Positions 9,999 to 24,550 of a stretch of DNA of 64,000 nt are shown here, piece after piece. This stretch comes from Desulfosediminicola ganghwensis (GTDB taxonomy: Bacteria > Desulfobacterota > Desulfobulbia > Desulfobulbales > Desulfocapsaceae), in the NCBI RefSeq assembly GCF_005116675.2, contig NZ_CP050699.1:372001-436000 (forward strand), in the 5' to 3' direction. Each line of letters begins with the position of its first letter. The first letter of the stretch is position 1. The notes below the pieces were generated by a model. That model searched no databases, was not told where the DNA came from, and was given only the letters and a program-made list of their open reading frames with translations. The translations under genes were made by a program, and so were the position numbers.

Positions 9999-11353
9999 GT
10001 TAGGTCAACCACTTTCGATTTTTCGCGTATATCAAACAAGCGAACAGGATGCAGCGCATGCTCCTCTATGACATCCCTGCTCTTGTCAGGATCAGCCGTA
10101 ACGAGAACCACCTCACAAGGTCTTCCCAATGCTCTTAAACGATTGAGCAAATCCCGACGCTTTTCATCAAGGCTTACCAGGATGACAATCAGGCTGCCGA
10201 GATAATCTGCATTATAGGTTATATTGTCGACAATCTCTGAAAACTGCACTGACTCTGCCGGCTGAACACAGGCAAGAAACTCCAGCATTTTCTGTTTTTC
10301 ACCCAGACTACTTCCACCACTCCGGCCTGATGAATCAGCAGATATACACGTTGTGCCGGCACATAACAGGCCCACGCCGCAAGCCCCCCTGCTTTCGGCG
10401 GTAATGATCGAAGCGGCCACGGATACGGCCTCTTCAAACAGAGCCCGTTCTTCCGGCAGCGGATAGATATCGAGCATCAACCCGCTCAATGAGAAATGTT
10501 CGTCCTGAAACTGGCGGACAACCGGTTCACCTGTCCGTGCTGTTGCCTTCCAATCAATATGTTTCAATGGATCGCCGGAATTGTATTCCCTCAGCGTGAC
10601 AAATTCTCCCGAGGAGCCATGCCTTCCCCCTGAACCGGTTCCGGCCAGGAGCTGTGACTGCATTCCACTCTGCTCTGTCTGAAGCACGGAATACCTCTTC
10701 GGTAACACCAGGAGCTTCGCCTCATCTTTGAAAAACAATTCTTTTTTCATCAGGCCCAGGGGCTCCAGCCGATAAATAGAGTAGCCGCCAAGTTGCACAT
10801 ATCCTCTGCGGAGAGGAGTGAATGAGACCTCTGCCTGGGTATGCTCATCCGGCTGCAGTGGTGGGAGAGATGAAGTGACGAATCTGGCACCAGCCTTTTG
10901 TTTCAGCAACCAGAGCCAGCGATAGTAGCCAAACTTTCGGTCAAAATAATTTCTCCGGGTCTCGCCATCTTCCCGCAACGTTGAAAATTCCTGATACGTC
11001 GGGAAATCTGTGCTGGAAAATTCTGTGAAAAAGAGACCATTGGAGGTTGCTGAGTCCTGGTTTTGCAGATCGAGCAGGTAGGTAAGCTTTTCTCCTGCGG
11101 TACAAGTTTCGGGAAGTATCCTGCGAACCCGCAGCCTGATATCAAAACGCAATGCAAGCGGAAATGCCAGTAACAGCAACATGACAGACAGTGAAGCTAA
11201 CTGGTACATCATGGTCTGCCGTGTGTTCAGGCCAAAGAGGACGCAGAGGGCGGCAAAAACAATCAACACTCTACCGGTATGACTTACTTTCCGTGAAACT
11301 TTCCGCTTGATTTTGGTCAAGCGGCAATACAGCCTGTACAATCGCGGGCTCAT
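9995..11353 (-). CDS. DUF58 domain-containing protein
   Basis: The 452-residue protein has two closely spaced N-terminal membrane helices (about residues 28-65), then a beta-rich region. The DUF58 hallmark is LREYNSGDPLKHIDWKATAR, followed by a vWA-like fold. Family members work with MoxR ATPases and transglutaminase-like proteins, which is exactly the arrangement here; both neighbours overlap it by 4 bp. The biochemical role is undefined in general. A perfect ATTGTCGACAAT palindrome lies inside the gene at 10223-10234, matching the GntR-type operator near 14700. Confidence 0.88.
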   Translation of the reverse strand: MSPRLYRLYCRLTKIKRKVSRKVSHTGRVLIVFAALCVLFGLNTRQTMMYQLASLSVMLLLLAFPLALRFDIRLRVRRILPETCTAGEKLTYLLDLQNQDSATSNGLFFTEFSSTDFPTYQEFSTLREDGETRRNYFDRKFGYYRWLWLLKQKAGARFVTSSLPPLQPDEHTQAEVSFTPLRRGYVQLGGYSIYRLEPLGLMKKELFFKDEAKLLVLPKRYSVLQTEQSGMQSQLLAGTGSGGRHGSSGEFVTLREYNSGDPLKHIDWKATARTGEPVVRQFQDEHFSLSGLMLDIYPLPEERALFEEAVSVAASIITAESRGACGVGLLCAGTTCISADSSGRSGGSSLGEKQKMLEFLACVQPAESVQFSEIVDNITYNADYLGSLIVILVSLDEKRRDLLNRLRALGRPCEVVLVTADPDKSRDVIEEHALHPVRLFDIREKSKVVDLT

Positions 11354-12327
11354 TTTGGCATAGCAACATTATGGAGGATTGTATTGACCACTGCCGTTCT
11401 GGTCACGCCGGAAAATCGGGCCTGGGAGGTGAGTTGAAGCCGATGGCCAAGGACATATGGTGCCGCCTCGATAATATCTCCCGGTACCACAAACTCACGC
11501 CCGGCGAAGAGAGCCAGGGCCTGCGATATTCTCAACAGAGCGATGGATGCCCTTACACTGGCACCAACAACCACATTTTCAGAGCTTCGGGTGGCACTCA
11601 CCAGATCGACAACATAATAACGAAGCTCTTCAGTGATGCGTATTGATTTCAAGGCGGCGGCCATCTCCACCACATCCTGTTCGGTGGCAACCGGCCGCAC
11701 ACTCTCGAGAGGGTGCGAAGAAAACTGATCGTTCAACACCATCGCCTCTGAGTCGCGATCCAGATACCCTGGTGAGAGCTCGATCATAAACCTGTCCATC
11801 TGGGACTCGGGCAACGGATAGGTACCATGTGACTCAATCGGGTTTTGGGTTGCTATAACAAAAAAGAGTCTGGTAAGCGGGTACTTTCGACCCTCAACGG
11901 TGACCTGGCGCTCCTCCATCGCTTCAAGGAGCGCGGATTGCGTTCGGGGACTGGCCCTGTTGATCTCGTCCGCCAGCAGGATGTTAGTAAAGACCGGGCC
12001 GCGTACAAACTCAAACTCCCCGCTATGCTGCCGATACAAAGAGACACCAACGATATCCGAGGGTAGCAGGTCGGGGGTGAACTGCAAGCGACTGAACATC
12101 GTCGCCACGGATTTGGCCAGGGTTTTCGCCAGGGTAGTTTTTCCGGTACCAGGAACATCTTCGAGCAGAACATGACCACTGGAGAAAAAGGCGGCCAGCA
12201 ATAATTTTACCGTCTGTTCCTTGCCCCTGACTATACTCTGTATGTTTTGAGAAATAGCCTGGTAGATTTCAGCCGCCCGGGCATAGTCCATTGTTGACTC
12301 CGGTTGAATCTCTTCACTATCAAGCAT
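11350..12327 (-). CDS. MoxR-family AAA+ ATPase
   Basis: The 325-residue protein shows Walker A (EDVPGTGKTTLAK), Walker B with the MoxR signature (LLADEINRASPRTQSALLEAM), the insert strand EERQVTVEG and sensor 1 (FVIATQNP). A C-terminal lid domain with GASVRASIALLR follows. MoxR proteins are chaperone-like ATPases that act with DUF58/vWA partners. It is the first gene of the minus-strand operon. The start at 12327 is supported by AAAGG just upstream. Confidence 0.93.
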   Translation of the reverse strand: MLDSEEIQPESTMDYARAAEIYQAISQNIQSIVRGKEQTVKLLLAAFFSSGHVLLEDVPGTGKTTLAKTLAKSVATMFSRLQFTPDLLPSDIVGVSLYRQHSGEFEFVRGPVFTNILLADEINRASPRTQSALLEAMEERQVTVEGRKYPLTRLFFVIATQNPIESHGTYPLPESQMDRFMIELSPGYLDRDSEAMVLNDQFSSHPLESVRPVATEQDVVEMAAALKSIRITEELRYYVVDLVSATRSSENVVVGASVRASIALLRISQALALFAGREFVVPGDIIEAAPYVLGHRLQLTSQARFSGVTRTAVVNTILHNVAMPK

Positions 12328-12676
12328 CTACCTTTAACCTCATCGGGTGTTTCTTTATATTCAAATCCCTGAATCCTCTTTATTTACAGGTACATTAAAG
12401 CAGATCCTACTATTCAACAACACCAATTGGCTCATTTACGATTACCATTTTTTACTACATCACGTTTCCCTTCACATCGAAGGCCGTTGCCGGATGTACA
12501 CAGGCCACACCGTCACAGCTGACGTAAACGTAAATTCAATTGCTCCTTCAAGTCTAATCTGGTACTTTTAGCCTGTTAGCAATCACACAACCCATGCATT
12601 TCAGCCAAGAGGTATTTTCGACGTTCAGGAGGCAGTACACTTATCATGCAACAATAGATCCCCGAGGAGATCGAGT
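12328..12676. other. Divergent intergenic region, moxR operon / acyl-CoA ligase
   Basis: This stretch of about 350 bp separates the leftward moxR operon from the rightward acyl-CoA ligase, so it must hold both promoters. I see no conserved small gene, no strong terminator and no copy of the GTCGAC operator. The only clear element is GAGGAG at about 12664, serving as the ribosome-binding site of the ligase. Confidence 0.5.
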
Positions 12677-14329
12677 ATGGTTCAGGACTATCAGCCAGGT
12701 GAAAGTTACGCGTACCCTTTACTCATTAAGCAGTTGCTCAAAACCGCCCTTGTCCAGGCCCCGGATCAGGAAATTGTTTACCGGGACAAACTCAGATACA
12801 CCTACCGCGATCTTGAAAATCGCATTAAACGGCTTGCTTCAACACTCACCCAAGCCGGCATGACCCATGGAGACACTGTTGCTGTTTTCGATTACGACAG
12901 TAATCGTTTCCTGGAATGCTTTTTCGCTATCCCCATGATGGGCTGCGTTATGCAGATGGTAAATTGGCGGCTCTCAACCAGGCAACTGGTCTATACCATT
13001 AATCATGCCGAGGCCAAGCTGGTTATCATCAATTCTGATTTCCTACCCCTTATCAACGAAATCAGAGAACATCTCGTTGACGTGGAAAAAATTATCGTCA
13101 TCGCCGAAAACCCCTCATACCCTGAGAGTTCTCTTGAGATTTACGGAGATTACGACGAGTTGCTCAGTGAGGCTTCCCCTGAATACAACTTTCCGGATTT
13201 TGACGAAAACACCAAGGCAACGACCTTTTATACAACCGGCACTACCGGTGATCCCAAGGGCGTTCATTTCACGCACCGTCAGCTTGTTCTGCACACCCTG
13301 TCCCTCACCATCGCCCTTTCAAGCTACGAGACCATAGGCCGATTTCGCTCAAACGACGTCTACATGCCGCTCACCCCCATGTTTCATGTGCATGCCTGGG
13401 GTATCCCATATGTTGCAACACTGCTGGGAGCCAAACAGGTCTATCCTGGCAAGTACGAGCCGGAGGTTCTGTTGAAACTTCTGGCCACCGAGGGTGTCAG
13501 CGCATCACATTGCGTACCGACGGTGCTGCAGATGATCGTAACCAGCCCCGCCGCCAAAACGGTTGATCTCTCAAACTGGAAAGTCATTATCGGTGGTTCA
13601 AAACTGTCTGCCGGCCAGGCAAAGGCTGCCAATGAGCTTGGTATCACTGTCTACACTGGCTACGGTATGTCTGAAACGTGTCCGGTTATCAGCCTTTCCA
13701 CACCGAAGACAATGATGCTCGACCAAATGGATGATGACGATATGCTTGATATCGTAGTCAAAACCGGGCTACCCATTCCCTTAGTTGAATTTGAGGTCGT
13801 CGATGTAGAGGGAACTCCGCAAGCCCACGATGGCATGTCCGTGGGAGAAGTTGTCTTTCGTGCCCCCTGGCTTACCAACGATTACTTCAAGGCTCCCGAG
13901 AAATCCTCGGAACTCTGGGTTAATGGCTGGATGCATAGCGGTGACGTCGGTCATATCGACAAGCACGGCTACCTTCAGGTTACCGACAGGATCAAAGATG
14001 TCATCAAGACAGGCGGTGAGTGGATATCATCCCTGGATCTTGAGAATTGCATCAGCAAACACCCTGCAGTACTTGAATCCGCTGCTATCGGTATCCCTGA
14101 TACCAAATGGGGAGAGCGACCATTACTCATCGTTAAACTCAAGCCCGAGATGGCGGGTGCGGCGGACCAGGAAAGCCTGAAAGGGTTTATGAAAGAAGCC
14201 GCCGCCGAAGGAGTAATCCCCAAATATGCGGTCCCCGATACAATCCATGTGGTGGAAGAGTTGCCAAAGACCAGTGTTGGCAAACTCAACAAGCGTATGA
14301 TGCGGACAGAATTTGGTCGTAACGAGTAA
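12677..14329 (+). CDS. Medium/long-chain acyl-CoA ligase (AMP-forming)
   Basis: The 550-residue protein is a complete ANL-superfamily adenylating enzyme. Visible motifs are the P-loop-like YTTGTTGDPKGVHFTHRQ, the GYGMSETCPV adenine-binding block, the hinge SGDVGHIDKHGYLQVTDRIKD, the GGEWISS block and the C-terminal catalytic lysine in PKTSVGKLNKR. These enzymes activate a carboxylate as acyl-AMP and transfer it to CoA. GGEWISSLDLE is characteristic of the FadD/DmdB-like branch acting on medium- or long-chain acids. GAGGAG 8-12 bp before the ATG supports the start. It precedes the GntR gene on the same strand but is separated by about 400 bp and a hairpin, so co-regulation is possible but unproven. 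Confidence 0.9.
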   Translation: MVQDYQPGESYAYPLLIKQLLKTALVQAPDQEIVYRDKLRYTYRDLENRIKRLASTLTQAGMTHGDTVAVFDYDSNRFLECFFAIPMMGCVMQMVNWRLSTRQLVYTINHAEAKLVIINSDFLPLINEIREHLVDVEKIIVIAENPSYPESSLEIYGDYDELLSEASPEYNFPDFDENTKATTFYTTGTTGDPKGVHFTHRQLVLHTLSLTIALSSYETIGRFRSNDVYMPLTPMFHVHAWGIPYVATLLGAKQVYPGKYEPEVLLKLLATEGVSASHCVPTVLQMIVTSPAAKTVDLSNWKVIIGGSKLSAGQAKAANELGITVYTGYGMSETCPVISLSTPKTMMLDQMDDDDMLDIVVKTGLPIPLVEFEVVDVEGTPQAHDGMSVGEVVFRAPWLTNDYFKAPEKSSELWVNGWMHSGDVGHIDKHGYLQVTDRIKDVIKTGGEWISSLDLENCISKHPAVLESAAIGIPDTKWGERPLLIVKLKPEMAGAADQESLKGFMKEAAAEGVIPKYAVPDTIHVVEELPKTSVGKLNKRMMRTEFGRNE

Positions 14330-14343
14330 GCGATAGCATTCAG

Positions 14344-14402
14344 TCTTCATGGCATCCCTGTTGTGCCGGATGTCATGAAGATTGGGCTGTTCAGCTTTTT
14401 TT
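14344..14402 (+). terminator. Possible terminator after acyl-CoA ligase
   Basis: TCTTCATGGCATCC (14344-14357) pairs with GGATGTCATGAAGA (14368-14381), with one G-U pair. A run of T (14396-14402) starts 14 bp later. The hairpin is strong, but the distance to the T run is unusual. The following 270 bp up to the GntR operator show no gene. Confidence 0.45.
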
Positions 14403-14696
14403 ATCCACCGCCCTTGCAATCGCCAGTAAGCGATGTCAAGATGAATTTATTATTCAATAAACGCTCAGCTTGGTCTGTATGCCTTGAAATCCAAGGCTTC
14501 GTTAGATCTTTGGAACGCTCTCCACGTCACAGCAGGCAATCACTGCAACTGGTTGCGGGTAGACCTCCACTCAAAGAGTTCAAGCTGTACCCCTGCAAGC
14601 AGCACCTATCCGCCGCATTTTCAAAGAGCACAAGTACTCCTCTCTAAATTCATCTCTTTTTTCTTGCAATCATAAATGAGTGCATGGTATAGCCTG

Positions 14697-14710
14697 GATT
14701 GTCGACAATC
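14697..14710. promoter_or_regulatory. Palindromic operator candidate upstream of gntR gene
   Basis: GATTGTCGACAATC is a perfect 14-bp palindrome lying 32-45 bp before the preferred start of the GntR gene (14742). Its core recurs as TTGTCGACAA at 15462-15471, in front of the ATP-grasp gene. FadR-subfamily GntR regulators typically bind such short TTGTnnACAA palindromes, so autoregulation is likely. Confidence 0.7.
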
Positions 14711-14741
14711 GACCAGATCATTTTTAGTCTCCCAAAAAACT

Positions 14742-15404
14742 ATGCCCATTCTCAAGCGAACATACAAAGATCAAGTAACTGAATATATTTATGACCTTGT
14801 TCTCGACGGGGATCTCTCACCTGGTGATCAAATAAAAGAGAGTTGGCTCGCCGCTGAAATGGGCATAAGCAGGGCACCGATCCGGGAAGCGCTTAAAGAA
14901 CTCATAACCAACGGCATTATTGAATATCGTCCCCAGGTCGGCAACTTCATAACCCACCTTTCGCCCAAGGAAATTATCGACGCCTATACTACCCGCGGAA
15001 TCCTTGAAGGCTACGCCATCATGATCACCAGGAAGCAGTTCTCTGAGGATGAGATAGAAGAGCTTGAAGGCATGACCAAACTCATGGAAAAATATGCTCT
15101 CAAGGATAATCGAAAAATGGTGGTTAACGTCGGCGACACCTTCCACAGCCTCCTTATCAGCAAAAATAAGAATATCCAGCTCATTGACTACACAGAGCGC
15201 TTGAGCCAGAAGCTCCATATCCTCTTCTATAAATTCTGGAGTAAGCTCTACACGCCTACAGAAATTGGCGAGCGCCACCTTCGCATCGTCACAAGCCTGA
15301 AATCTGGTGATCCCCACCGTATTGAAGAAACCATCCGGGATCATTATACCGAAACAGGTACCAAAATCGCGGAACTGCGCAAGCCTGAGATCCGCAAAAA
15401 ATAA
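14742..15404 (+). CDS. GntR-family transcriptional regulator (FadR/FCD subfamily)
   Basis: The protein has an N-terminal winged helix-turn-helix (YIYDLVLDGDLSPGDQIKES, then EMGISRAPIREALKEL) and an all-helical FCD ligand domain. Conserved metal/ligand histidines are visible in GDTFHSLL, ERHLRIVTSL and RDHYTETG. I prefer the ATG at 14742 (MPILKRTYKDQ, 220 residues) over an in-frame ATG at 14676, because the upstream start would place the 14-bp palindrome inside the coding region. FCD regulators usually bind carboxylic acids or amino acids and repress catabolic operons. Operators on both sides of the gene suggest it represses itself and the ATP-grasp/KamA/M20 operon. Confidence 0.88.
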   Translation: MPILKRTYKDQVTEYIYDLVLDGDLSPGDQIKESWLAAEMGISRAPIREALKELITNGIIEYRPQVGNFITHLSPKEIIDAYTTRGILEGYAIMITRKQFSEDEIEELEGMTKLMEKYALKDNRKMVVNVGDTFHSLLISKNKNIQLIDYTERLSQKLHILFYKFWSKLYTPTEIGERHLRIVTSLKSGDPHRIEETIRDHYTETGTKIAELRKPEIRKK

Positions 15405-15418
15405 CTGATATGCTAATA

Positions 15419-15480
15419 GATTGTCTACAGGAACACCATTAATTGTAACTGAACTACAAATTTGTCGACAATAGACAATC
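15419..15480. promoter_or_regulatory. Composite operator region before the ATP-grasp operon
   Basis: The 136-bp gap between the GntR and ATP-grasp genes contains GATTGTCTA at 15419-15427, its exact inverted copy TAGACAATC at 15472-15480, and the palindrome TTGTCGACAA at 15462-15471. These match the 14-bp palindrome upstream of the regulator gene. The layout, one full site plus flanking half-sites, fits cooperative or looped repression of the operon starting at 15541. Confidence 0.68.
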
Positions 15481-15540
15481 TTCAATCGACGCATGCTGCT
15501 GATGTTTTAAAACTGACAAATAACGATAGGAAAAACAGCC

Positions 15541-16998
15541 ATGTTTCTACAAACGCTCCACTCATCCGGTTCAACAGTTAAAGCCCCTGGCTCGGACATT
15601 CTGTTCTCCAACTTCAACTACAATCCGGATACATATTACTTTCTCTATGTCGGTGACCTGAAGAATTATAGCCTCAACTATTTCGTTCGCGAGTGTCTTG
15701 AACGGCGGTTGAACAAAAAGAATATTCAGTTTATCGCTATCGTCCCGGACGTCTGCATTCAATATAACTACCTGAACATCATGGTGATAAACCCGGTGGC
15801 CAACGAAGATATGATCCAGAATCATAACTTCAGCGGCAATGGTAACCCGCCACGTAAAAGCTGCCGGTTAAAATCCTCAACGTTCATGGGTGCAGTCTCA
15901 AGTTCTCCTTCTGTCAAAGCGCTGATCGAAACCATTCTTCAGAACCAGAATCAGCTCTATGTCAACCTCTATGAAAGTCTGGTTGAAATGGATCTCGACT
16001 CTATTGAGGGTGTTTCAATTCTCGGGCCCGACAAACACATTGCCAAAATGTACAACAACAAAGTTGTCCAACGGCAAATGCTGCAGGATGTTGTCCCGCT
16101 GATCGAAGGTTTCAACTGTACAAGCCGGCAGGAATTACTTGAGACTACAGCCGCCCTTTGGCAGGAGTGGCCGGCAGGAATCTTTGTAAGCGCTGCCTAC
16201 TCAGCCGGTGGTGCCAACTCTGCCATCACTTTTTGCCAGCAGGAGGTGATGGAAAAATTTACTGAAGAAGAGTGCGAATATGTGGTCACCCGCTATCTGC
16301 CCCACGATCTTGACCCCACCGTTCTCGCTGTTGTAGCCAATGAAGAAGATGTCTATATAGCAGGAATTGCAGATCAATCCATCATTGACGGTAACAGGTT
16401 TGTGGGTTCAAGCTTTCCCTCGGCAGCAACTGACGAGCAAAAACAGGAGCTACGGGAGCTTACTATCGCAGTGGGTAAAGTCCTGGGAAAGGCAGGATAT
16501 CGTGGGATTTTCGGCTGCGATTACCTGATCGACAGAGAAGGCCAGATCCACTTTCTGGAAATTAACGCCAGAAAACAGGGCACGACTCTCGAATTCTGCT
16601 TCACCCTGGAGCAGTCGCTGCCGGAAGGCTCGCCAATGTTGCCGGAGCTTGAGTACTTTGCCGTCACCGAAAACCGCTTCCCGCCCACCACCCGCGAAAT
16701 GAATGGCAACCACCGTGGAATCCACTGGGGCACCTATAACTACAAAATCACTTCAACCCAACACACCAAGGGCTACATCCCGCAAAACCCTTACGAACGG
16801 GAAACCTTCAAAAAAATTGCCCGCAAAGAACTGCTCAAGGATTTCGTAATACTCGAACATATCGGCACCAACTTTCTTGTGTCACCCGGAACCTTTTTAG
16901 CCAGGGTGGTCTCAGTCGCCCGTTGCCAGGAAGATGTCGCTGAAGGACTCTGCCAGGGAGTCGGCTTTATCCAGCAAACAATTCAGGACGCACAATAA
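15541..16998 (+). CDS. ATP-grasp domain protein (putative carboxylate-amine/thiol ligase)
   Basis: In this 485-residue protein the first ~170 residues form a pre-ATP-grasp-like region. The ATP-grasp core follows, with VTRYLPHDLDP, GYRGIFGCDYLIDREG and the Mg-binding FLEINARKQGTT (the Glu-x-Asn pair). ATP-grasp enzymes make an acyl phosphate and join it to an amine, thiol or other nucleophile. The exact subfamily is not recognisable. AGGA about 10 bp before the ATG supports the start. It is 15 bp upstream of the KamA-like gene and clearly co-transcribed. I infer that it ligates a product or substrate of the aminomutase-like enzyme; this is untested. Confidence 0.78.
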   Translation: MFLQTLHSSGSTVKAPGSDILFSNFNYNPDTYYFLYVGDLKNYSLNYFVRECLERRLNKKNIQFIAIVPDVCIQYNYLNIMVINPVANEDMIQNHNFSGNGNPPRKSCRLKSSTFMGAVSSSPSVKALIETILQNQNQLYVNLYESLVEMDLDSIEGVSILGPDKHIAKMYNNKVVQRQMLQDVVPLIEGFNCTSRQELLETTAALWQEWPAGIFVSAAYSAGGANSAITFCQQEVMEKFTEEECEYVVTRYLPHDLDPTVLAVVANEEDVYIAGIADQSIIDGNRFVGSSFPSAATDEQKQELRELTIAVGKVLGKAGYRGIFGCDYLIDREGQIHFLEINARKQGTTLEFCFTLEQSLPEGSPMLPELEYFAVTENRFPPTTREMNGNHRGIHWGTYNYKITSTQHTKGYIPQNPYERETFKKIARKELLKDFVILEHIGTNFLVSPGTFLARVVSVARCQEDVAEGLCQGVGFIQQTIQDAQ

Positions 16999-17013
16999 GG
17001 AGCATAAACCACA

Positions 17014-18609
17014 ATGAACGCACCAAGTACAACTGAAGCAGAGATCATGACAGAGTCCGTATCCGCATCATTTGACAGCTACACCAAAGAATTACTTGAG
17101 ACCCTGAGCGGCAAGGCAGAAGGCACGGTTGAAGCGGCTGACAAAATTGAAATTGCAAATCTACTTGAAAACGCGCAAAGCCAGCAACTCACTGCGCCGA
17201 TTGTCGATCTGTTCAACAGGCTGCTTGAATTGCAGGAGAAAACCGGAGCTTCCCCCGCAGACTTCGGCATACCCATTGACCAGTTGGAGCAACTCGCCAG
17301 AAAGCATGAGGAAATTGACGAGCACATGGTCTCCGTCGGCGGTCGCCTCACCCAGGCTCTGCCTATCGCCAGCACTGCCAACAGCAGGGTTGAAGAGTAC
17401 CTTGCCAAAAAAGATACGGAAGCGCCAAGTGGTATCGAACTCTGGGAAACAATAGAGGAGAACAGGAAAAAGATTCAGTCCGAGCTCGGGATGAGCGATG
17501 ACGACTGGAACTCGTTCAACGGCCAGATCCGTTACGCCATCGACTCTGTCGAAACCCTGGCCAAACTGATCGACTTGCCAGCAGATGTGCTTGAGTCCAT
17601 TGCCAATGTCACTAAGACCTACCGCATGCGCCTCACCCCGTATTACACCAGCCTCATTATGCCGGGCGCCATCAACGACCCGATTATGCTGCAATCAGTA
17701 CCCACAGGAGAGATGGTTCAAAATGCGGGAATTGAAATACCGCCCGTCGCGGCCGACCACTCCCCGGCCCGCCTGGTCGACCAGTTTTACCCGAGGGTAG
17801 TGACCATCAAGGCAACCAACATGTGCGCGATGTACTGCACCCACTGCCTGCGTCTTGCCCACATTGGTAAAAAAGACAAGGTCTACTCCAAAGAGGCATA
17901 TGGCGAAGCTCTTGACTACATCCGAAAAAATGATCGTATCCGCGACGTGTTGATCACCGGTGGCGACGCCTTTTTACTGCCAAATTCGCTGCTTGAATGG
18001 CTGCTTGGCGAGCTCGACAGTATCGACCACATCAAGGCCAAGCGACTTGGCACTCGTATTCCGGTTACCGCACCAATGCGCGTCGATGATGGGCTGCTCG
18101 ACATCCTGGAGGCCAGCAACGACAAGAAACCGATCAGGGTCGTTACCCAGATTAATACCCCACAGGAAATCACTCCGGTATCCCGAAATGTCTTCCGGCA
18201 GATTTCCAAGCGCACCTTCACCGTTCTCAACCAGGCGGTACTGCTGAAAGGAATCAACGATACCCGGGTCAAGATGTGGAAATTGTGCGAAACAGTGCAG
18301 GAAGCATATGTTCGCCCGTACTACCTTTTCAACTGCAGCTACCGAAACCCGCAATTCAAGCATTTCAGGGTACCTCTGGAAGTCGGCCGTGATCTTGTGG
18401 AATCGATGTACGGCAATATCTCGGGTGATGCCATACCACGTTATATCGCCACCGCCGGCGGCAAAATCCCATTGCATCGTTCCAACGTTGTCAGCGGTAG
18501 TGATGGCCAGTATGTGCTGAAGAAACCCTGGAGCGGAGAAGAGGTCAGCTACCCTGACGCTGATCCGGATGTCTATCAGCAGGATAATTTTGCCTTCAAG
18601 ATGAAATAG
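17014..18609 (+). CDS. KamA-family radical SAM protein (aminomutase-like, unknown substrate)
   Basis: The radical SAM motif C-x3-C-x2-C is at Cys271, Cys275 and Cys278 (MCAMYCTHCLRL). Family blocks DVLITGGDAFLL, LGTRIPVTAPMR, LKGINDT and VRPYYLFNC follow, and the PLP-binding lysine is probably Lys484 in ATAGGKIP. The known family (lysine and glutamate 2,3-aminomutase, EpmB) moves an amino group from C2 to C3. The two aspartates that hold the lysine side chain in the clostridial enzyme (Asp293, Asp330) are absent: Ser442 replaces the first and no Asp precedes AGGK. About 230 residues precede the core, longer than in lysine aminomutase. AAGGAG precedes the ATG. The gene lies between ATP-grasp and M20 genes with gaps of 15 and 2 bp. 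Confidence 0.88.
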   Translation: MNAPSTTEAEIMTESVSASFDSYTKELLETLSGKAEGTVEAADKIEIANLLENAQSQQLTAPIVDLFNRLLELQEKTGASPADFGIPIDQLEQLARKHEEIDEHMVSVGGRLTQALPIASTANSRVEEYLAKKDTEAPSGIELWETIEENRKKIQSELGMSDDDWNSFNGQIRYAIDSVETLAKLIDLPADVLESIANVTKTYRMRLTPYYTSLIMPGAINDPIMLQSVPTGEMVQNAGIEIPPVAADHSPARLVDQFYPRVVTIKATNMCAMYCTHCLRLAHIGKKDKVYSKEAYGEALDYIRKNDRIRDVLITGGDAFLLPNSLLEWLLGELDSIDHIKAKRLGTRIPVTAPMRVDDGLLDILEASNDKKPIRVVTQINTPQEITPVSRNVFRQISKRTFTVLNQAVLLKGINDTRVKMWKLCETVQEAYVRPYYLFNCSYRNPQFKHFRVPLEVGRDLVESMYGNISGDAIPRYIATAGGKIPLHRSNVVSGSDGQYVLKKPWSGEEVSYPDADPDVYQQDNFAFKMK

Positions 18610-18611
18610 CG

Positions 18612-19781
18612 ATGCGTAGCCAGATTGCCGAGTTTTTAAAAAACAGTGAGCAGGACCTGTTCCGGTTGTTGCGGGAACTGGTCCTGCAGTCAAGTTACAG
18701 CCGGGATAAGGCTGGCGTTGATGTAGTTGGAGAAATCATCAGCCGGGAACTCTCAACTCTGCCGATGGATTTAAAACGCTACGAATCGAGCGAATACGGC
18801 AACAATCTGTTGTTTCGGAGCCCTGCCTGCTGCCCGGGTACCAAGCCTATTCTGCTGGTGGGTCACATGGATACCGTGTTTCCACCAGACAGCCATTTCA
18901 ATTGGTTTAAGGAAGAAAACGGTAAAGTCTTCGGGCCCGGTGTGATCGACATGAAAGGCGGTCTGGTGGTCGCCATATTTGCCTTGAAGGCGCTTTACAA
19001 GATGGGGCTCTTGCCTTCTCTTCCCATTACGCTGCTCTGCAATTCCGATGAGGAAATCGGTTCCCCTTCCTCCCGCCAACTCATTGCCGATGAAGGGGCC
19101 AGGAGTTTGTTGGCCATGGTCTTTGAATGTGGCGGCCTTGGCGGTGAAATAGTGACCGGCCGCAAAGGCAAAACAGGTTATTCACTGAGCGTTCAAGGCA
19201 AAGCCGGCCATGCTGCTTTTGCTGGCAAGGACAAAGCCAGTGCCATCCTCGAACTCGCCCGTAAAACTATCGCCATGGAGCAATTAAACGACCCCGGGCG
19301 ACAACTTGTGGTAAATGTAGGTGTGGTGGCTGGTGGCTTGGGGCCCAACACCATTGCAGAAAATGCCTCTGCCCAGATAGACACCCGATTTCTCACAGCA
19401 GCAGATGCCAGGCACTGCCATGCTGCACTCAACAGTATAACCAATGAGTGCACTACACCAGAAACACACGCAGAACTGACAGTCACTTCGAGGCGTGATC
19501 CGATGGAACAGAGTGCTGCCAACAAAATGCTCTACACTGCGATTTATAAAGAAGCTCAGCAGCTTGGTCTTCCCCTGAGAGAGGAATTGAGAAGTGGTGT
19601 CTCCGACGCCAATATCATAGCTGGAGTGAAAACCCCGGTGATCGACGGCCTTGGGCCAATCGGCGACCTCGATCACAGTGATCGTGAGTATATGTTGCGG
19701 GATAGCCTCCTTGAGCGGACTCTCCTCACGGCCTGTTCAATCATAACCCTTTGGGAGAACCATTCGGCCCAGCCCTCCTGA
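18612..19781 (+). CDS. M20-family metallopeptidase (carboxypeptidase G2/ArgE-like)
   Basis: The 389-residue protein has all di-zinc ligands of the M20 family: His85 (GHMDTVF), Asp113 bridging (VIDMKGG), Glu148 beside the catalytic base Glu147 (SDEEIGS), Glu172 (FECGG) and His355 (DLDHSDREY). A dimerisation domain with GKAGHAAFAG lies in the middle. There is no signal peptide, so it is cytoplasmic. The closest character is of glutamate-carboxypeptidase-type enzymes, which hydrolyse N-acyl amino acids or dipeptides. The start is 2 bp after the KamA-like stop, so it is translationally coupled. Together with the ATP-grasp enzyme it suggests formation and hydrolysis of an amide of an unusual amino acid. 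Confidence 0.88.
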   Translation: MRSQIAEFLKNSEQDLFRLLRELVLQSSYSRDKAGVDVVGEIISRELSTLPMDLKRYESSEYGNNLLFRSPACCPGTKPILLVGHMDTVFPPDSHFNWFKEENGKVFGPGVIDMKGGLVVAIFALKALYKMGLLPSLPITLLCNSDEEIGSPSSRQLIADEGARSLLAMVFECGGLGGEIVTGRKGKTGYSLSVQGKAGHAAFAGKDKASAILELARKTIAMEQLNDPGRQLVVNVGVVAGGLGPNTIAENASAQIDTRFLTAADARHCHAALNSITNECTTPETHAELTVTSRRDPMEQSAANKMLYTAIYKEAQQLGLPLREELRSGVSDANIIAGVKTPVIDGLGPIGDLDHSDREYMLRDSLLERTLLTACSIITLWENHSAQPS

Positions 19782-19791
19782 TCTGTCTTTT

Positions 19792-19840
19792 ACATATGCA
19801 GCCGCCGCCTGTAGCTATGAGGCCGGCTGCATATGTTTCC
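19792..19840 (+). terminator. Hairpin ending the ATP-grasp/KamA/M20 operon
   Basis: ACATATGCAGCCG (19792-19804) and CGGCTGCATATGT (19824-19836) form a perfect 13-bp stem 10 bp after the M20 stop codon. Only a short T-rich tail follows, so termination may be partial. Confidence 0.6.
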
Positions 19841-19905
19841 CCATCATGCTTGCCCCTCGGCCTGGTCAAGCAGTTACCTGATAATACACACTATTTATCC
19901 TTTCA

Positions 19906-19934
19906 TTGACACAGCAGTTACCAAACTATAGATT
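19906..19934 (+). promoter_or_regulatory. Sigma-70-like promoter for pncA-pncB
   Basis: TTGACA at 19906-19911 is followed after 17 bp by TAGATT at 19929-19934, about 100 bp before the preferred pncA start. This is the best -35/-10 pair in the gap of about 250 bp after the M20 gene. Confidence 0.5.
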
Positions 19935-20034
19935 GTATTCAGATACTTGATAACTTTTGGCTTCCCAGCCAACCAAGCCTCGTCAATCTTGTCCAACATC
20001 ATTAGGTGGGCAGTATTTCAAATACATTCAGACG

Positions 20035-20613
20035 ATGAACTCATTAAATCCAGAGCAGGATGCGCTCCTCATTGTTGATATCCAGAATGACTTTCTCCCC
20101 GGCGGCAGTCTGGCCATTACCGATGGAGATAGTATTATCCCGACAATAAACAGTTATATTAAGAAATTCGCCGATGCTGGTGCTGCTATATTTGCCAGCA
20201 GAGATTATCATCCGGCTGAACATATCTCCTTCAAGGACCAGGGTGGTCCCTGGCCACCTCATTGTGTGGTCGGAACATGGGGAGTGCAATTCCACCCGGA
20301 TCTGCAGCTTAGTGATAACACCATCTATATAGAAAAAGGCACTAATATCGGCAAAGAAGCATACTCGGCAATGGATGAAACTCCCCTCGCCGGCAAATTG
20401 CAGCAAGCAGCTATCAAGCGGGTCTTTATCTGCGGCGTTGCCACCGATTACTGCGTGCTTGCCTCTGGCAAAGACCTGCTCGCAGCCGCATTTGAGGTGG
20501 TACTGCTCATGGACGCCATTAAAGCTGTCGACGTGAACCCGGGTGATGGTGACCGGGCTGTTGCCGAGCTGATCTCCTCTGGTGCGACCCAGCTAACTAT
20601 CAATAACCTTTAA
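20035..20613 (+). CDS. pncA: Nicotinamidase
   Basis: This cysteine hydrolase of the isochorismatase fold has the nicotinamidase triad Asp15 (LLIVDIQNDF), Lys101 (YIEKGTN) and Cys140 (CGVATDYCV). The metal-binding DYHPAEHISF segment is also present. It deamidates nicotinamide to nicotinate for NAD salvage. An in-frame ATG at 19957 exists, but the extra 26 residues look non-conserved, so the start at 20035 (192 residues) is preferred. pncB follows 25 bp downstream, so one operon performs the two salvage steps. Confidence 0.93.
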   Translation: MNSLNPEQDALLIVDIQNDFLPGGSLAITDGDSIIPTINSYIKKFADAGAAIFASRDYHPAEHISFKDQGGPWPPHCVVGTWGVQFHPDLQLSDNTIYIEKGTNIGKEAYSAMDETPLAGKLQQAAIKRVFICGVATDYCVLASGKDLLAAAFEVVLLMDAIKAVDVNPGDGDRAVAELISSGATQLTINNL

Positions 20614-20638
20614 CATACAACTGTCAGGCTGTAACAAT

Positions 20639-21988
20639 ATGCAAACTATCTCCCCGCTGCTCACCGACTTTTATCAGCTGACCATGATGCAGGCGTATTA
20701 CGATCATGGTATGGAAGACGAGGCTGTGTTTGAGTTTTTCGTTCGCAAGCTCCCTTCCGAGCGTAAATTTTTCGTTGCCAGTGGCCTGGAACAGGTTGTT
20801 GAGTATCTGGAGACTGTTCATTTCAGCGAAGCTGATATCGATTTTTTGCGTCGTGATGGCCGCTTTAACGAGAATTTTCTCAATCGTATAAGGGATTTTG
20901 AGTTCAGCGGCTCCGTGGATGCAATGGCGGAGGGAACTCTGTTTTTTACCGATGAACCAATTCTTCGCATCACCGCCCCATTGCCGGTGGCACAACTTGT
21001 CGAAACCCGTATCATCAATATTCTGCAATTTCAGACCCTGATCGCCTCAAAAGCGATTCGCATGAAACAGATCATGCCGGAAAGTACGCTCATCGATTAC
21101 GGGCTTCGCAGAGCCCACGGAGCTGAGGCCGGTCTTCTTGCGGCTCGAGCCAGTTATATCGCCGGCTTCACCGGCACAGCAACCGTCGCCGCCGGCATGA
21201 CATTTTCCATCCCGGTATACGGCACAATGGCCCACTCGTTCATTCAGGCTCACCTTTCCGAGCGTAAAGCATTTTCTGATTTCGCGGTCAGCCATCCCGA
21301 CAATACCGTGCTGCTTCTCGATACCTACGACACCATTCGGGGCGCACACAAAGCTGTAGATCTGGCCAGGGATCTCGCTAATAGAAATATCAAGATCAAG
21401 GGGGTGCGACTCGACAGTGGTGATATGATCAAACTCTCCAGGCAGGTACGAAAAATTCTCGATGATGGTGGCCTGCATGATGTCGCAATATTTGCCAGCG
21501 GTAACCTGGATGAATATGCGCTTCAACGCTTTAGGGACGAAGCCGCTGCAGTAGACGGCTTCGGCATTGGTACCAAAATGACCACCTCAGCGGATGTTCC
21601 ATACCTGGATTGTGCCTATAAACTTGTCGAGTACGCGGGCCAGGGACGCAGAAAACTTGCCCAGAATAAATCTACCTGGGCTGGCAGAAAACAGGTCTTC
21701 CGCAACTATGGTGATGACGGTACCATGACTGGCGACACCATGTGCCTCGCCCATGAACTGCATTCTGGTGAAAAATTGATCAAACCTGTCATGCAGCAGG
21801 GAAAACGAGTATCTCAACTACCGACATTGGATGAAACCAGAACCTACGTGCTCAAACAACTCGGTACTGTTCCAGAAGGCCTGCAGCCAGACTCCGAAGA
21901 GGATTACTACTACCCTGTTCAACAGTCTGAGGAGCTTGTCTCATATTGTGACGAGGTTTCAAAAGTAATGACCAGGAATCACGATTAA
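20639..21988 (+). CDS. pncB: Nicotinate phosphoribosyltransferase
   Basis: The 449-residue enzyme converts nicotinate and PRPP to nicotinate mononucleotide. It starts with the family signature SPLLTDFYQLTMMQAYY and carries FEFFVRKLPSERKFFVASGL, FGLRRAHG-type YGLRRAHGAEAG, GTMAHSFIQA, LLDTYDT and the phosphate-binding VRLDSGDM and GIGTKMTTS segments. It follows pncA in the same operon. The start at 20639 gives a normal family length. Confidence 0.95.
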   Translation: MQTISPLLTDFYQLTMMQAYYDHGMEDEAVFEFFVRKLPSERKFFVASGLEQVVEYLETVHFSEADIDFLRRDGRFNENFLNRIRDFEFSGSVDAMAEGTLFFTDEPILRITAPLPVAQLVETRIINILQFQTLIASKAIRMKQIMPESTLIDYGLRRAHGAEAGLLAARASYIAGFTGTATVAAGMTFSIPVYGTMAHSFIQAHLSERKAFSDFAVSHPDNTVLLLDTYDTIRGAHKAVDLARDLANRNIKIKGVRLDSGDMIKLSRQVRKILDDGGLHDVAIFASGNLDEYALQRFRDEAAAVDGFGIGTKMTTSADVPYLDCAYKLVEYAGQGRRKLAQNKSTWAGRKQVFRNYGDDGTMTGDTMCLAHELHSGEKLIKPVMQQGKRVSQLPTLDETRTYVLKQLGTVPEGLQPDSEEDYYYPVQQSEELVSYCDEVSKVMTRNHD

Positions 21989-22147
21989 CCGCAGGGCGCA
22001 ACAACCACCGGGCCTGTATCCCGATGATCATTATGCCTCTCTCACTGCTGGTCAGGCTCTATACTGCTTCGGGCCTGACCATGCCTGAACGTCTGAGATA
22101 CTCATGCTTACCGTGATTGCCTGGTCTTCAATACCCGCAAAGAACCT

Positions 22148-24289
22148 TCAGGAGCGTTCGGCCTGTCTCGCCCGTAACACGGCAGGCATACTTTGCAGTC
22201 CCTCCTCAGTCATCGGCTCGTCTCCAAACAACATCATGCCTATGGAAAAGCCCAGCTCACGATAAGCTTCGAACTGTTGCTCATCAAAAAACTGATCATT
22301 TGTGGTCTGGTCCGGAAATGAGCTGTCTTTTCGTTTATATCCATAGATATCTTCACTGAGCTCTTTGACCAGAGTTGACTTCACATAGATAAAGCTTCCC
22401 TCTTCACCATTAATATATTTTATGGTGCCAATCGCATACGGCAGCTTCGAAATACCTGTCGCCTCAGCCGGTTGTAAAAGGTCTGTGCACAATGAAAGTT
22501 CGGCACCAAAATCAACCCGCACCAGTTCAATCAACTTCGCTAAATCACTAAAACTGAATGCAGGGTCACAACCAGCATCAGAAGCAACAATCAACCTGCA
22601 ACGCCTGCGGATAAGTTCATATACCGCAAGGTTTTCGAAGTGGCCTCCGTCTGAGAGGTGTACCTGATGGCAATTCTCGTTAAGGCCGACTCCCAGCATC
22701 TCCCGAAAGATATAATAGTACCAGGCCGGCGCCCTCAAGGGTTTATAACATTTGTCCTTCACTTTTGGATTCCTGGCCCAGTAACCAAGCCTGACGTTGA
22801 ACAGCGTCATCAAAAATGACAGGGGACGGGAACGGGTCGCATAGGTATTGGGGTCAACTGCAGCACCTGAAATGGCCATTGCCGTTGCCAGGTCCGTCTC
22901 ACCTCCGGCATAACGCTCTGTTTCGAGCCAGTCAGTATTGTCCGAGCCGCAATAATATGGACTCAGAACAAAATTTTCCCCTCCTCTTCGCTTGAGCTTG
23001 GGGTTGCCTGAGCCAACTGTCTGAAGATTGGTATTGATGATATGATATGGCGTATCTGTTTCAGCCTGCTGAATAGTGCTGAGGTAGCAATAGTCCGCAT
23101 CTCTCGCTGTTGCATTTATCCGCTGCGTACTCGCCTTACCAGTATCTCCACCATTGGGGCTGAAATCATACGGCATATATGCCTCTCTCAGCCGGTTTCT
23201 ATAAAACCTGTGCATGGAAACATGGTTAATATCGGCAAAAATCGCCAGGAACAGTGATATCCCCATTCCTGCATAAATCAGGTAACTAGCTGCAGTCGAG
23301 CACGACAACTCTATAACTAACTGATACATATAGAGGAATATGCCGTAAACAATCAGACTCAAACCAATCCCCATCAGCAGGGACCGTACACCACGAGTTT
23401 CATTTTGCTCTGTCCTGCCAATTAGGCCCGCACCAAATGAAATCAGACCACTTAATGAAATTGAGGAAAGAGTCGCCTTCAACCAGTCAGACCCGACAAA
23501 CTCCCTGATAGAGTTATGAGCAATGGGGATAGTGCCGACAATAAGAGCAATAACAGCGATCATCAACCCAATGCCCATCCAGACCCGAAACCAGCGTTGC
23601 ACAACTTCGTGGCAGAATTTTCGGCATCTGGTTGACACCACATAGGCAAGGGTAATCACCAGATAAGCGATGAACGATACGAGGGACAGGCAAAATATCA
23701 GAAAAAACCCATCAGGTAATGCCAGCCCCTTGTTGAGGGAGATCACCACCCCTGTAAAAATTGGTGTGCAGCTGATCGAGTTTATGGTCAACCAATAGAA
23801 CAGGGCCAGAAATACCGGAATCACAATTAGAAGATTGACGGCAACTCCTGTTATGCAGGCTGCTATCAACGCCCAGACGGTTAAGCCGTCCCCAGGCGTC
23901 AGATATTGCCCATGGCAGCGCAACCAGGCAAGCACCTTCCCCCCTGTGCCGCTATAATCTTTTCTGCTGTTACCAAATGGAAAGATGTCCCGCCCCACTA
24001 TCTTCAGCCAGGTCAGACAGGAACCAATATAACCGCCCCCGGAAACCGTAGAAAGGTAATCGACATATTTCAAGAAACCCGACCTATTCATCGCCTGGAG
24101 CAGACCGAGATTAAAGGTCGCCGATCGTATGCCTCCACCTGAAAGCGCCACTCCGATGTACTCACCCTCCTTTTGTTCCCGATAAATTCCGGCCTTCTTC
24201 CGGCGCCGACTGAGCCAGGTTTTTTCTTTCACCGGTACATTTTCACTCCCCACCAACTCCTGCCACTTCGACATACTCCCCTCCCTCAA
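22148..24289 (-). CDS. Membrane-embedded patatin-like phospholipase
   Basis: The 713-residue protein starts with a patatin oxyanion motif (ALSGGGIRSATFNLGLL) and a nucleophile elbow STVSGGGYIG with probable catalytic Ser83. About 230 residues of hydrophobic segments, roughly six to eight helices, are inserted between residues ~130 and ~360. The fold then resumes with the catalytic Asp547 in SDGGHFENLAVYEL. Patatin hydrolases cleave acyl chains of lipids through this Ser-Asp dyad. The membrane insert within the catalytic fold is unusual compared with single-domain patatins and should anchor it at the inner membrane. It is a single gene, convergent with pncB. An 8-bp hairpin (22050-22080) lies in the gap. 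Confidence 0.85.
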   Translation of the reverse strand: MREGSMSKWQELVGSENVPVKEKTWLSRRRKKAGIYREQKEGEYIGVALSGGGIRSATFNLGLLQAMNRSGFLKYVDYLSTVSGGGYIGSCLTWLKIVGRDIFPFGNSRKDYSGTGGKVLAWLRCHGQYLTPGDGLTVWALIAACITGVAVNLLIVIPVFLALFYWLTINSISCTPIFTGVVISLNKGLALPDGFFLIFCLSLVSFIAYLVITLAYVVSTRCRKFCHEVVQRWFRVWMGIGLMIAVIALIVGTIPIAHNSIREFVGSDWLKATLSSISLSGLISFGAGLIGRTEQNETRGVRSLLMGIGLSLIVYGIFLYMYQLVIELSCSTAASYLIYAGMGISLFLAIFADINHVSMHRFYRNRLREAYMPYDFSPNGGDTGKASTQRINATARDADYCYLSTIQQAETDTPYHIINTNLQTVGSGNPKLKRRGGENFVLSPYYCGSDNTDWLETERYAGGETDLATAMAISGAAVDPNTYATRSRPLSFLMTLFNVRLGYWARNPKVKDKCYKPLRAPAWYYYIFREMLGVGLNENCHQVHLSDGGHFENLAVYELIRRRCRLIVASDAGCDPAFSFSDLAKLIELVRVDFGAELSLCTDLLQPAEATGISKLPYAIGTIKYINGEEGSFIYVKSTLVKELSEDIYGYKRKDSSFPDQTTNDQFFDEQQFEAYRELGFSIGMMLFGDEPMTEEGLQSMPAVLRARQAERS

Positions 24290-24550
24290 GCCATCATTAT
24301 ATTCAACATGCTGATATAACTTAATATTACTTAACAGCCTAACAGATTAAACATAATTTCGCAGGTCAATACTGGATATTCATTCGCAAAAATGCTGATT
24401 TACAGGAAAACTGTACCGACAACGGTGAAAGATCAGCTCTGGAATAGCTTTGTGAAAATAGCTCTTGTGCCTCAACATCTTTTTATGGCAATACAGATAG
24501 ATAATTACTTCCAAATTGAGGCCAGATTCACACACAACCAGAGGTGGGAA

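Follow-up and report, generated by a model that had tools for sequence, protein, structure and literature searches.

The closest known arrangement to the genes treated here is ablAB, in which an aminomutase is paired with an acetyltransferase that acts on the beta-amino acid. A glutamate 2,3-aminomutase is reportedly known from C. difficile, through work of Ruzicka and Frey in 2007. We have analyzed a gene cluster of related type in a stretch of 64,000 nucleotides of Desulfosediminicola ganghwensis (assembly GCF_005116675.2, contig NZ_CP050699.1, positions 372,001 to 436,000, forward strand), which we call the window. A GntR/FCD regulator (GntR), an ATP-grasp ligase (GRASP), a KamA-like radical S-adenosylmethionine (SAM) enzyme (KAM) and an M20 hydrolase (M20) are found consecutively at 14676-19781 of the window, all on the plus strand of the open reading frame (ORF) listing. 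Our preferred interpretation, held with middling confidence, is a glutamate-centred pathway of beta-amino-acid conjugation that comprises import, isomerisation, ATP-dependent conjugation and hydrolysis by M20. The first-pass annotation of this DNA knew of no described pathway of such make-up, and none of the papers listed in our literature search, which is no proof of absence, describes the GRASP/KAM/M20 set.

The two core genes code for GRASP (15541-16998, plus strand, 485 aa) and KAM (17014-18609, plus strand, 531 aa), and a frequent third gene codes for the metallo-hydrolase M20 (18612-19781, plus strand, 389 aa). The gap between GntR and GRASP is 136 bp, while GRASP and KAM are separated by 15 bp and KAM and M20 by only 2 bp, so that the ORF coordinates bear out the tight packing noticed in the first pass. 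Its family calls agree with the profile scores as well: 31.8 bits to PF02655 (ATP-grasp_3, cut-off 23.2) for GRASP, 230.9 bits to the KamA family model TIGR00238 (cut-off 199.2) for KAM, 91.3 bits to PF01546 for M20, and 60.4 and 46.3 bits to PF00392 and PF07729 for the regulator.

Comparison with other genomes showed that GRASP, KAM and M20 form a real conserved unit. Among 144 genomes of relatives, 88 of them belonging to the same family as the window, a long KAM (at least 70% identity) was present in 29, all within that family, and the next matches drop to 38%. GRASP precedes the long KAM in 27 of the 29 (in one of these only a partial GRASP is left), and in the other two KAM lies at a contig edge. 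Searching the genome collection with a ligase profile gave 98 loci, of which 80 were kept; they overlap the 29 relatives, and some metagenome-assembled genomes (MAGs) contribute a pair of loci, so the number of independent cases is below 80. They span Desulfopila, Desulfofustis, Desulfoprunum, Desulfocapsa, Desulfonatronospira, Desulfonatronovibrio, Sulfurospirillum, Arcobacteraceae, one SAR324 MAG and one Brocadiaceae MAG. An aminomutase is located downstream of GRASP, within 0.8 kb, in 62 of the 67 loci with enough DNA, and in one locus (L146) both are fused in a single frame of 918 codons. The five testable loci that lack it there include L106, L108 and L114, which adjoin genes of a cluster holding RimK-like and glutathione-synthetase-like ligases, L121, which has neighbours in common with L114, and L143, where KAM and M20 are found next door on the opposite strand. 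M20 is present in 38 of 57 testable loci and GntR upstream in 19 of 68, and therefore there is no fixed four-gene set. What stood of the four-gene unit expected in the first pass is a conserved core of ATP-grasp ligase and aminomutase, with M20 and GntR as variable members. The distribution of GRASP is patchy, with 6 positive genomes out of 297 sampled across the phylum, including our own (at 1e-60), versus 28 of the 93 family genomes (at 1e-50).

Some loci depart from this picture. No aminomutase is in view in L106, L108 (98-10374), L111, L112, L114 and L142, all adjoining members of the RimK-like/glutathione-synthetase-like ATP-grasp cluster, and L108 also carries an adenylate cyclase and a cyclic-nucleotide (cNMP)-binding protein. 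A distant KamA-family gene (27-28%) lies divergently upstream of the ligase in L072 (6466-8265), L120 (7355-8473), L124 (186-1304) and L126 (121-1413).

In the aminomutase, C271, C275 and C278 (the CxxxCxxC motif), R280 and K484 are invariant in the 45 KAM rows aligned, and by comparison with the structure 2a5h of a lysine 2,3-aminomutase (LAM) the cluster cysteines, the pyridoxal phosphate (PLP) lysine and Arg134 are retained, where we take LAM Lys337 to be the PLP lysine and Arg134 the arginine that holds the substrate carboxylate. The structure model of KAM (predicted local distance difference test, pLDDT, 88.3) matches 2a5h over 369 alignment columns and has an extra helical stretch of about 110 residues at the N-terminus. 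Asp293 and Asp330 of LAM presumably bind the lysine side chain; the first is replaced by Ser442 in all 45 rows and the second, at position 480, by Thr in 44 and Ala in one. In glutamate 2,3-aminomutase, as we assume, Lys and Asn replace the two Asp, and KAM, with Ser and Thr, does not show this pattern. Arg444 and Arg476, invariant in the 45 rows, could meet the side-chain carboxylate of the substrate.

In four loci with ligases 37-40% identical (L144, L146, L148 and L149) the place of KAM is taken by a shorter enzyme resembling glutamate 2,3-aminomutase. The three full-length ones score 614.5, 632.7 and 584.2 bits on the glutamate 2,3-aminomutase model TIGR04368 (cut-off 650), and the partners in the four loci have Lys at the site of LAM Asp293 and, like KAM, Thr at that of Asp330. 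In L145 there is a broken or split aminomutase copy with 337 bits over 255 residues on the glutamate model. We built a tree of 44 rows, namely 18 KAM (of 46 available: 16 of 44 locus rows, the one of the window and its second copy), four glutamate-2,3-aminomutase-like enzymes, 21 other KamA-family proteins from relatives and 2a5h. A 99/94 split puts KAM, on a long branch, together with the glutamate-2,3-aminomutase-like enzymes; the tree rests on enzymes just under the TIGR04368 cut-off, with no proven glutamate 2,3-aminomutase included. KAM appears in it as a deep clade of its own, to which the glutamate-2,3-aminomutase-like enzymes are sister. A lysine 2,3-aminomutase was rejected on the residues, the tree and the score (284.8 bits on TIGR03820, below the equivalog cut-off of 525.4). 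The first pass would have counted a grouping of KAM with proven lysine or glutamate 2,3-aminomutases against its pathway; KAM reaches neither equivalog cut-off, and glutamate-type enzymes are its nearest in the tree, but its clade is separate and deep. A second KAM, 77% identical, is encoded in the same genome (L050, 9583-11163; G000:C1 ~1862582-1864162), behind oligopeptide/dipeptide-type ATP-binding cassette (ABC) transporter genes.

A second line of evidence comes from an importer. TAXI-TRAP genes are found next to the operon, upstream or downstream according to the lineage; in L149 the TRAP membrane component and a Usp gene are directly upstream on the same strand. Counting loci with >7 kb of DNA upstream and 8 kb downstream as well covered, a glutamate-type TAXI/TRAP was near 23 of 31, or 23 of 29 when L106 and L108 are left out (32 of the 80 loci overall). 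The substrate-binding proteins (SBPs) have as best PDB matches the TAXI SBPs 8s4j and 9ibo, and we took 8s4j to be VcGluP because it agrees with the positions of the residues stated in PMC11574862. The glutamate-binding residues of VcGluP are Y45, S75, Q93 and E125 (PMC11574862). The four are kept in all 26 operon-linked copies of VcGluP type that cover the positions and in 4/4 copies encoded away from the operon, including the one of the own genome (L151), and the partial SBP of L071 keeps both positions covered. Two further TAXI paralogues (27-28%, in L088 and L089) are without these residues. The equivalent of Y45 is found in 78% of the TAXI sequences of that study (PMC11574862), and therefore Y45 alone says little. 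In the family of 93 genomes, a TRAP marker (PF11874 at 1e-30) was detected in 26 of the 28 genomes with GRASP (at 1e-50) versus 14 of the other 65, one of these 14 (G050) having a KAM at a contig edge. The Fisher value for this co-occurrence, 7e-11, is inflated by kinship, and an exact one-sided test stratified by genus gave P = 0.006. At most 10 kb separate the marker from the ligase in 12 of the 26 genomes having both.

GRASP is modelled (pLDDT 91.5) with a complete ATP-grasp fold, matching chains of PurK, PurD, PurT and biotin carboxylase at Z of about 25, for example 9zoi_A (Z 25.6, root mean square deviation (rmsd) 4.2, 356 residues aligned) and 3lp8 (Z 25.3, rmsd 3.4, 368 aligned). Carboxylases, PurK, PurT and PurD fill the top rows of the fold search and the glutamate ligase BesA is 50th in the Foldseek list, so that the substrate is not narrowed by the fold. 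Against the PDB, the best match of the GRASP family profile is BesA (1.4e-9, about 100 positions), and, as said, some other GRASP loci adjoin RimK-like and glutathione-synthetase-like ligases. For M20 the nearest solved structure is carboxypeptidase G2 (CPG2, 1cg2); all six metal ligands and catalytic Glu, at the positions that we take for them, are kept in 42/42 sequences. Of the CPG2 glutamate pocket, presumably Lys208, Asn275 and Arg324, the latter two are also kept in 42/42.

Three lines, the partner swap, the transporter and a weak kinship of the ligase, support a substrate of the glutamate family. The first two of these, the exchange of KAM for glutamate-2,3-aminomutase-like enzymes and the glutamate-type importer, were not foreseen in the first pass and go beyond that earlier reading in pointing to glutamate. 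From this we infer substrate, order of steps, product and mode of regulation as follows. Glutamate would be imported by the VcGluP-type TAXI-TRAP system, whose genes adjoin the operon in many relatives and lie at another place in the own genome. KAM, dependent on PLP and SAM, would act as a 2,3-aminomutase on glutamate or a glutamyl compound, shifting the amino group from the alpha to the beta carbon; GRASP would use ATP to activate a carboxylate and would link an amine with glutamate or beta-glutamate, the product being a small conjugate, for instance a dipeptide; and M20 would hydrolyse the conjugate once it is no longer needed. GntR would control the operon from its TTGTCGACAA operators, probably as a repressor. 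The most likely role, weakly supported, is that of a compatible solute or storage compound; the first pass had likewise proposed that a beta-amino acid is made, conjugated and released, with a putative role as solute or signal. In a more specific version, to which we give a fairly low probability, sulfate reducers and Campylobacterota would have an undescribed pathway to a compatible solute: a new clade of radical SAM aminomutase would convert imported glutamate to beta-glutamate, a dedicated ATP-grasp ligase would turn this into a beta-glutamyl conjugate, and the hydrolase would serve its recovery after osmotic downshift. Beta-glutamate has been reported from marine sediments, a topic on which our literature search returned no paper, and, if true, this pathway could be one of its sources there.

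Several observations weigh against the glutamate-centred pathway. The best-scoring named model for KAM is glutamate 2,3-aminomutase TIGR04368, but with 342.9 bits it stays well below the equivalog cut-off of 650, and Ser442 is found where the glutamate-type partners have Lys; therefore the substrate may differ from free glutamate. The second KAM of the own genome has no GRASP partner. Eight of the 31 well-covered loci are without such a transporter nearby, the association is reversed in genus g15 (2 genomes with both, 2 with GRASP only and 3 with TRAP only), and the TRAP genes of the own genome are ~0.63 Mb away from the operon, the sole operator-like site in their 19.9 kb stretch being a single-mismatch one ~10 kb from the SBP gene. 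The resemblance of GRASP to BesA is weak and confined to positions 224-325 of 463. In M20 the position of CPG2 Lys208 is Ile or Val in 40 of 42 sequences, and therefore a glutamate specificity of the hydrolase is not established. Finally, an Rfam search of 9000-24500 of the window and of seven loci gave zero matches and thus no riboswitch clue.

The alternative that survives best, although we consider it improbable, has the ligase acting first. GRASP would make an amide of gamma-glutamyl type in which the alpha-amino and alpha-carboxyl groups stay free. KAM, as an aminomutase of peptides rather than of the free amino acid, would isomerise the glutamyl part of this amide, and M20 would cleave the product. 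The gene order of ligase, aminomutase and hydrolase fits, as do the ligase-aminomutase fusion of L146, the transporter of oligopeptide/dipeptide type before the second KAM and the side-chain site of KAM, unlike that of glutamate-type enzymes (Ser for Lys, an insertion of one residue, Arg476). However, gene order need not mirror reaction order, glutamate-type enzymes occupy the place of KAM in some loci, and we know of no KamA-family enzyme that acts on a free dipeptide.

Slightly less probable is a catabolic route in which imported glutamate-like compounds or beta-glutamate serve as carbon and nitrogen source: GRASP would glutamylate an amine intermediate, KAM would work from beta to alpha, M20 would free glutamate and GntR/FCD would sense the substrate. 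Aminomutases are reversible, GntR/FCD regulators often govern catabolic genes, and transporter, regulator and hydrolase together resemble an uptake-and-use system. Yet an ATP-consuming ligase would be an unusual constant partner, and M20 is absent in 19 of 57 and GntR in 49 of 68 loci, most of which keep ligase and aminomutase.

Quite unlikely is a pathway for lysine or another non-glutamate beta-amino acid, with the glutamate transporter as neighbour by an unrelated cause. It would agree with KAM being under both equivalog cut-offs and with the distant TRAP genes of the own genome, but neither lysine-binding Asp is found in any of the 45 KAM rows and the transporter recurs on either side of the operon, including the Sulfurospirillum records. 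EpmA/EpmB modify elongation factor P (EF-P) and RimK modifies ribosomal protein S6, and a similar attachment of a beta-amino acid to a protein or cofactor by GRASP is the least probable of all, since in spite of EpmB belonging to the KamA family (TIGR03821 matches KAM at 176.5 bits) and of the RimK-like gene in some loci, no target-protein gene recurs among the larger ORF clusters of the neighbourhoods, and the presence of an importer and a hydrolase speaks for a small molecule.

Returning to the glutamate-centred pathway, its regulation can be followed through a palindrome, TTGTCGACAA, first spotted by eye and counted afterwards. As the first-pass annotation had claimed for matching operators, exact copies are located at 14699-14708, ahead of the likely GntR start, and at 15462-15471, ahead of the GRASP gene. 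The GntR ORF is listed from 14676, so that the first operator falls inside it, and for this reason translation probably starts at Met23, giving a gene at 14742-15404 (plus strand). Of 13 GntR homologues, 6 align only from residue 20-25 on, and 7 already from residue 5-9, across the letters encoded by the operator. The 80 GRASP loci (1.05 Mb) hold 24 exact sites, all within the 19 GntR-bearing loci, 16 of them in the short stretches ahead of GntR or the ligase and 8 elsewhere. With up to one mismatch allowed, 16 of the 19 loci have a site ahead of GntR or the ligase (21 sites); the total in the 80 loci is then 104, and therefore sites with one mismatch are frequent. L075, L147 and L150 have no site, even with one mismatch, ahead of GntR or the ligase, and L147 and L150 have exact sites ~300 bp or more further upstream. 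Two sites of this type lie between GntR and a divergent TAXI gene in the Sulfurospirillum loci L134 and L135, and a single-mismatch one is ahead of the TAXI gene in L113; none is directly ahead of the TRAP genes of the own genome. The pattern WTTGTCGACAAW has 8 sites in the whole genome versus 3 for its reversed control, and 3 of the 8 are in the window. The GntR-bearing loci have TTGTCGACAA as a shared operator motif. The FCD motif TNGTNNNACNA gave zero sites in 12500-16000. A third exact TTGTCGACAA site of the window, at 10224, is within an unrelated minus-strand gene.

Of the neighbouring genes, the upstream acyl-CoA ligase, whose membership the first pass had left open, probably lies outside the operon, because among the neighbourhoods compared, at 45% identity or more, it adjoins the operon only in the window, L052 and L053, that is, besides the window in two of the three other genomes of the genus (not in L051). 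The nicotinamidase-like and nicotinate phosphoribosyltransferase genes 3' of the operon (19957-21988), present likewise in L071 and L073, both loci of Desulfopila, are probably an unrelated NAD salvage pair. MreB, MreC, PBP2 and RodA, which are shared neighbours, were set aside as they resemble lineage synteny (L080-L084, L131 and L141).

How these genes compare with known systems can now be specified. In place of the acetyltransferase of ablAB, the operon has an ATP-grasp ligase and a hydrolase, with an aminomutase of another clade, and no acetyltransferase was found among the seven proteins scanned at 12677-21988. KAM shares with AblA (2a5h) the fold, the CxxxCxxC motif, the PLP lysine and the carboxylate arginine, but differs in the replaced Asp293 and Asp330 and in its 285 bits versus 525.4. 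BesA (L-propargylglycine--L-glutamate ligase, 8yi6) has the ATP-grasp fold in common with GRASP and is its best PDB profile match, whereas GRASP has only 24.4 bits on the BesA model NF042917 (equivalog cut-off 750). Carboxypeptidase G2 is of the same family as M20, with the same metal ligands, Asn275 and Arg324, but not the same residue at Lys208. The SBPs beside the operon are 42-67% identical to that of VcGluP, keep its binding residues and, like VcGluP with UspA, have a Usp-family gene beside the TRAP genes, whereas in V. cholerae the system is reported to adjoin argR and mdh and not an aminomutase operon (PMC11574862). The nearest relation is to glutamate 2,3-aminomutase: KAM falls below 650 bits, has Ser for Lys at the Asp293 site and the helical N-terminal addition of ~110 residues, but TIGR04368 is its top named model (343 versus 285 bits for the lysine type), and the glutamate-2,3-aminomutase-like enzymes (584-633 bits) are its sister clade with the same Thr at the Asp330 site. 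The operon points to one more deeply branching group of amino-acid 2,3-aminomutases, one that has a ligase of its own. In these bacteria an aminomutase of glutamate type goes together with a ligase and with an importer of glutamate type, and this offers a directly testable connection of glutamate uptake with the chemistry of beta-amino acids in anaerobes of the sulfur cycle.

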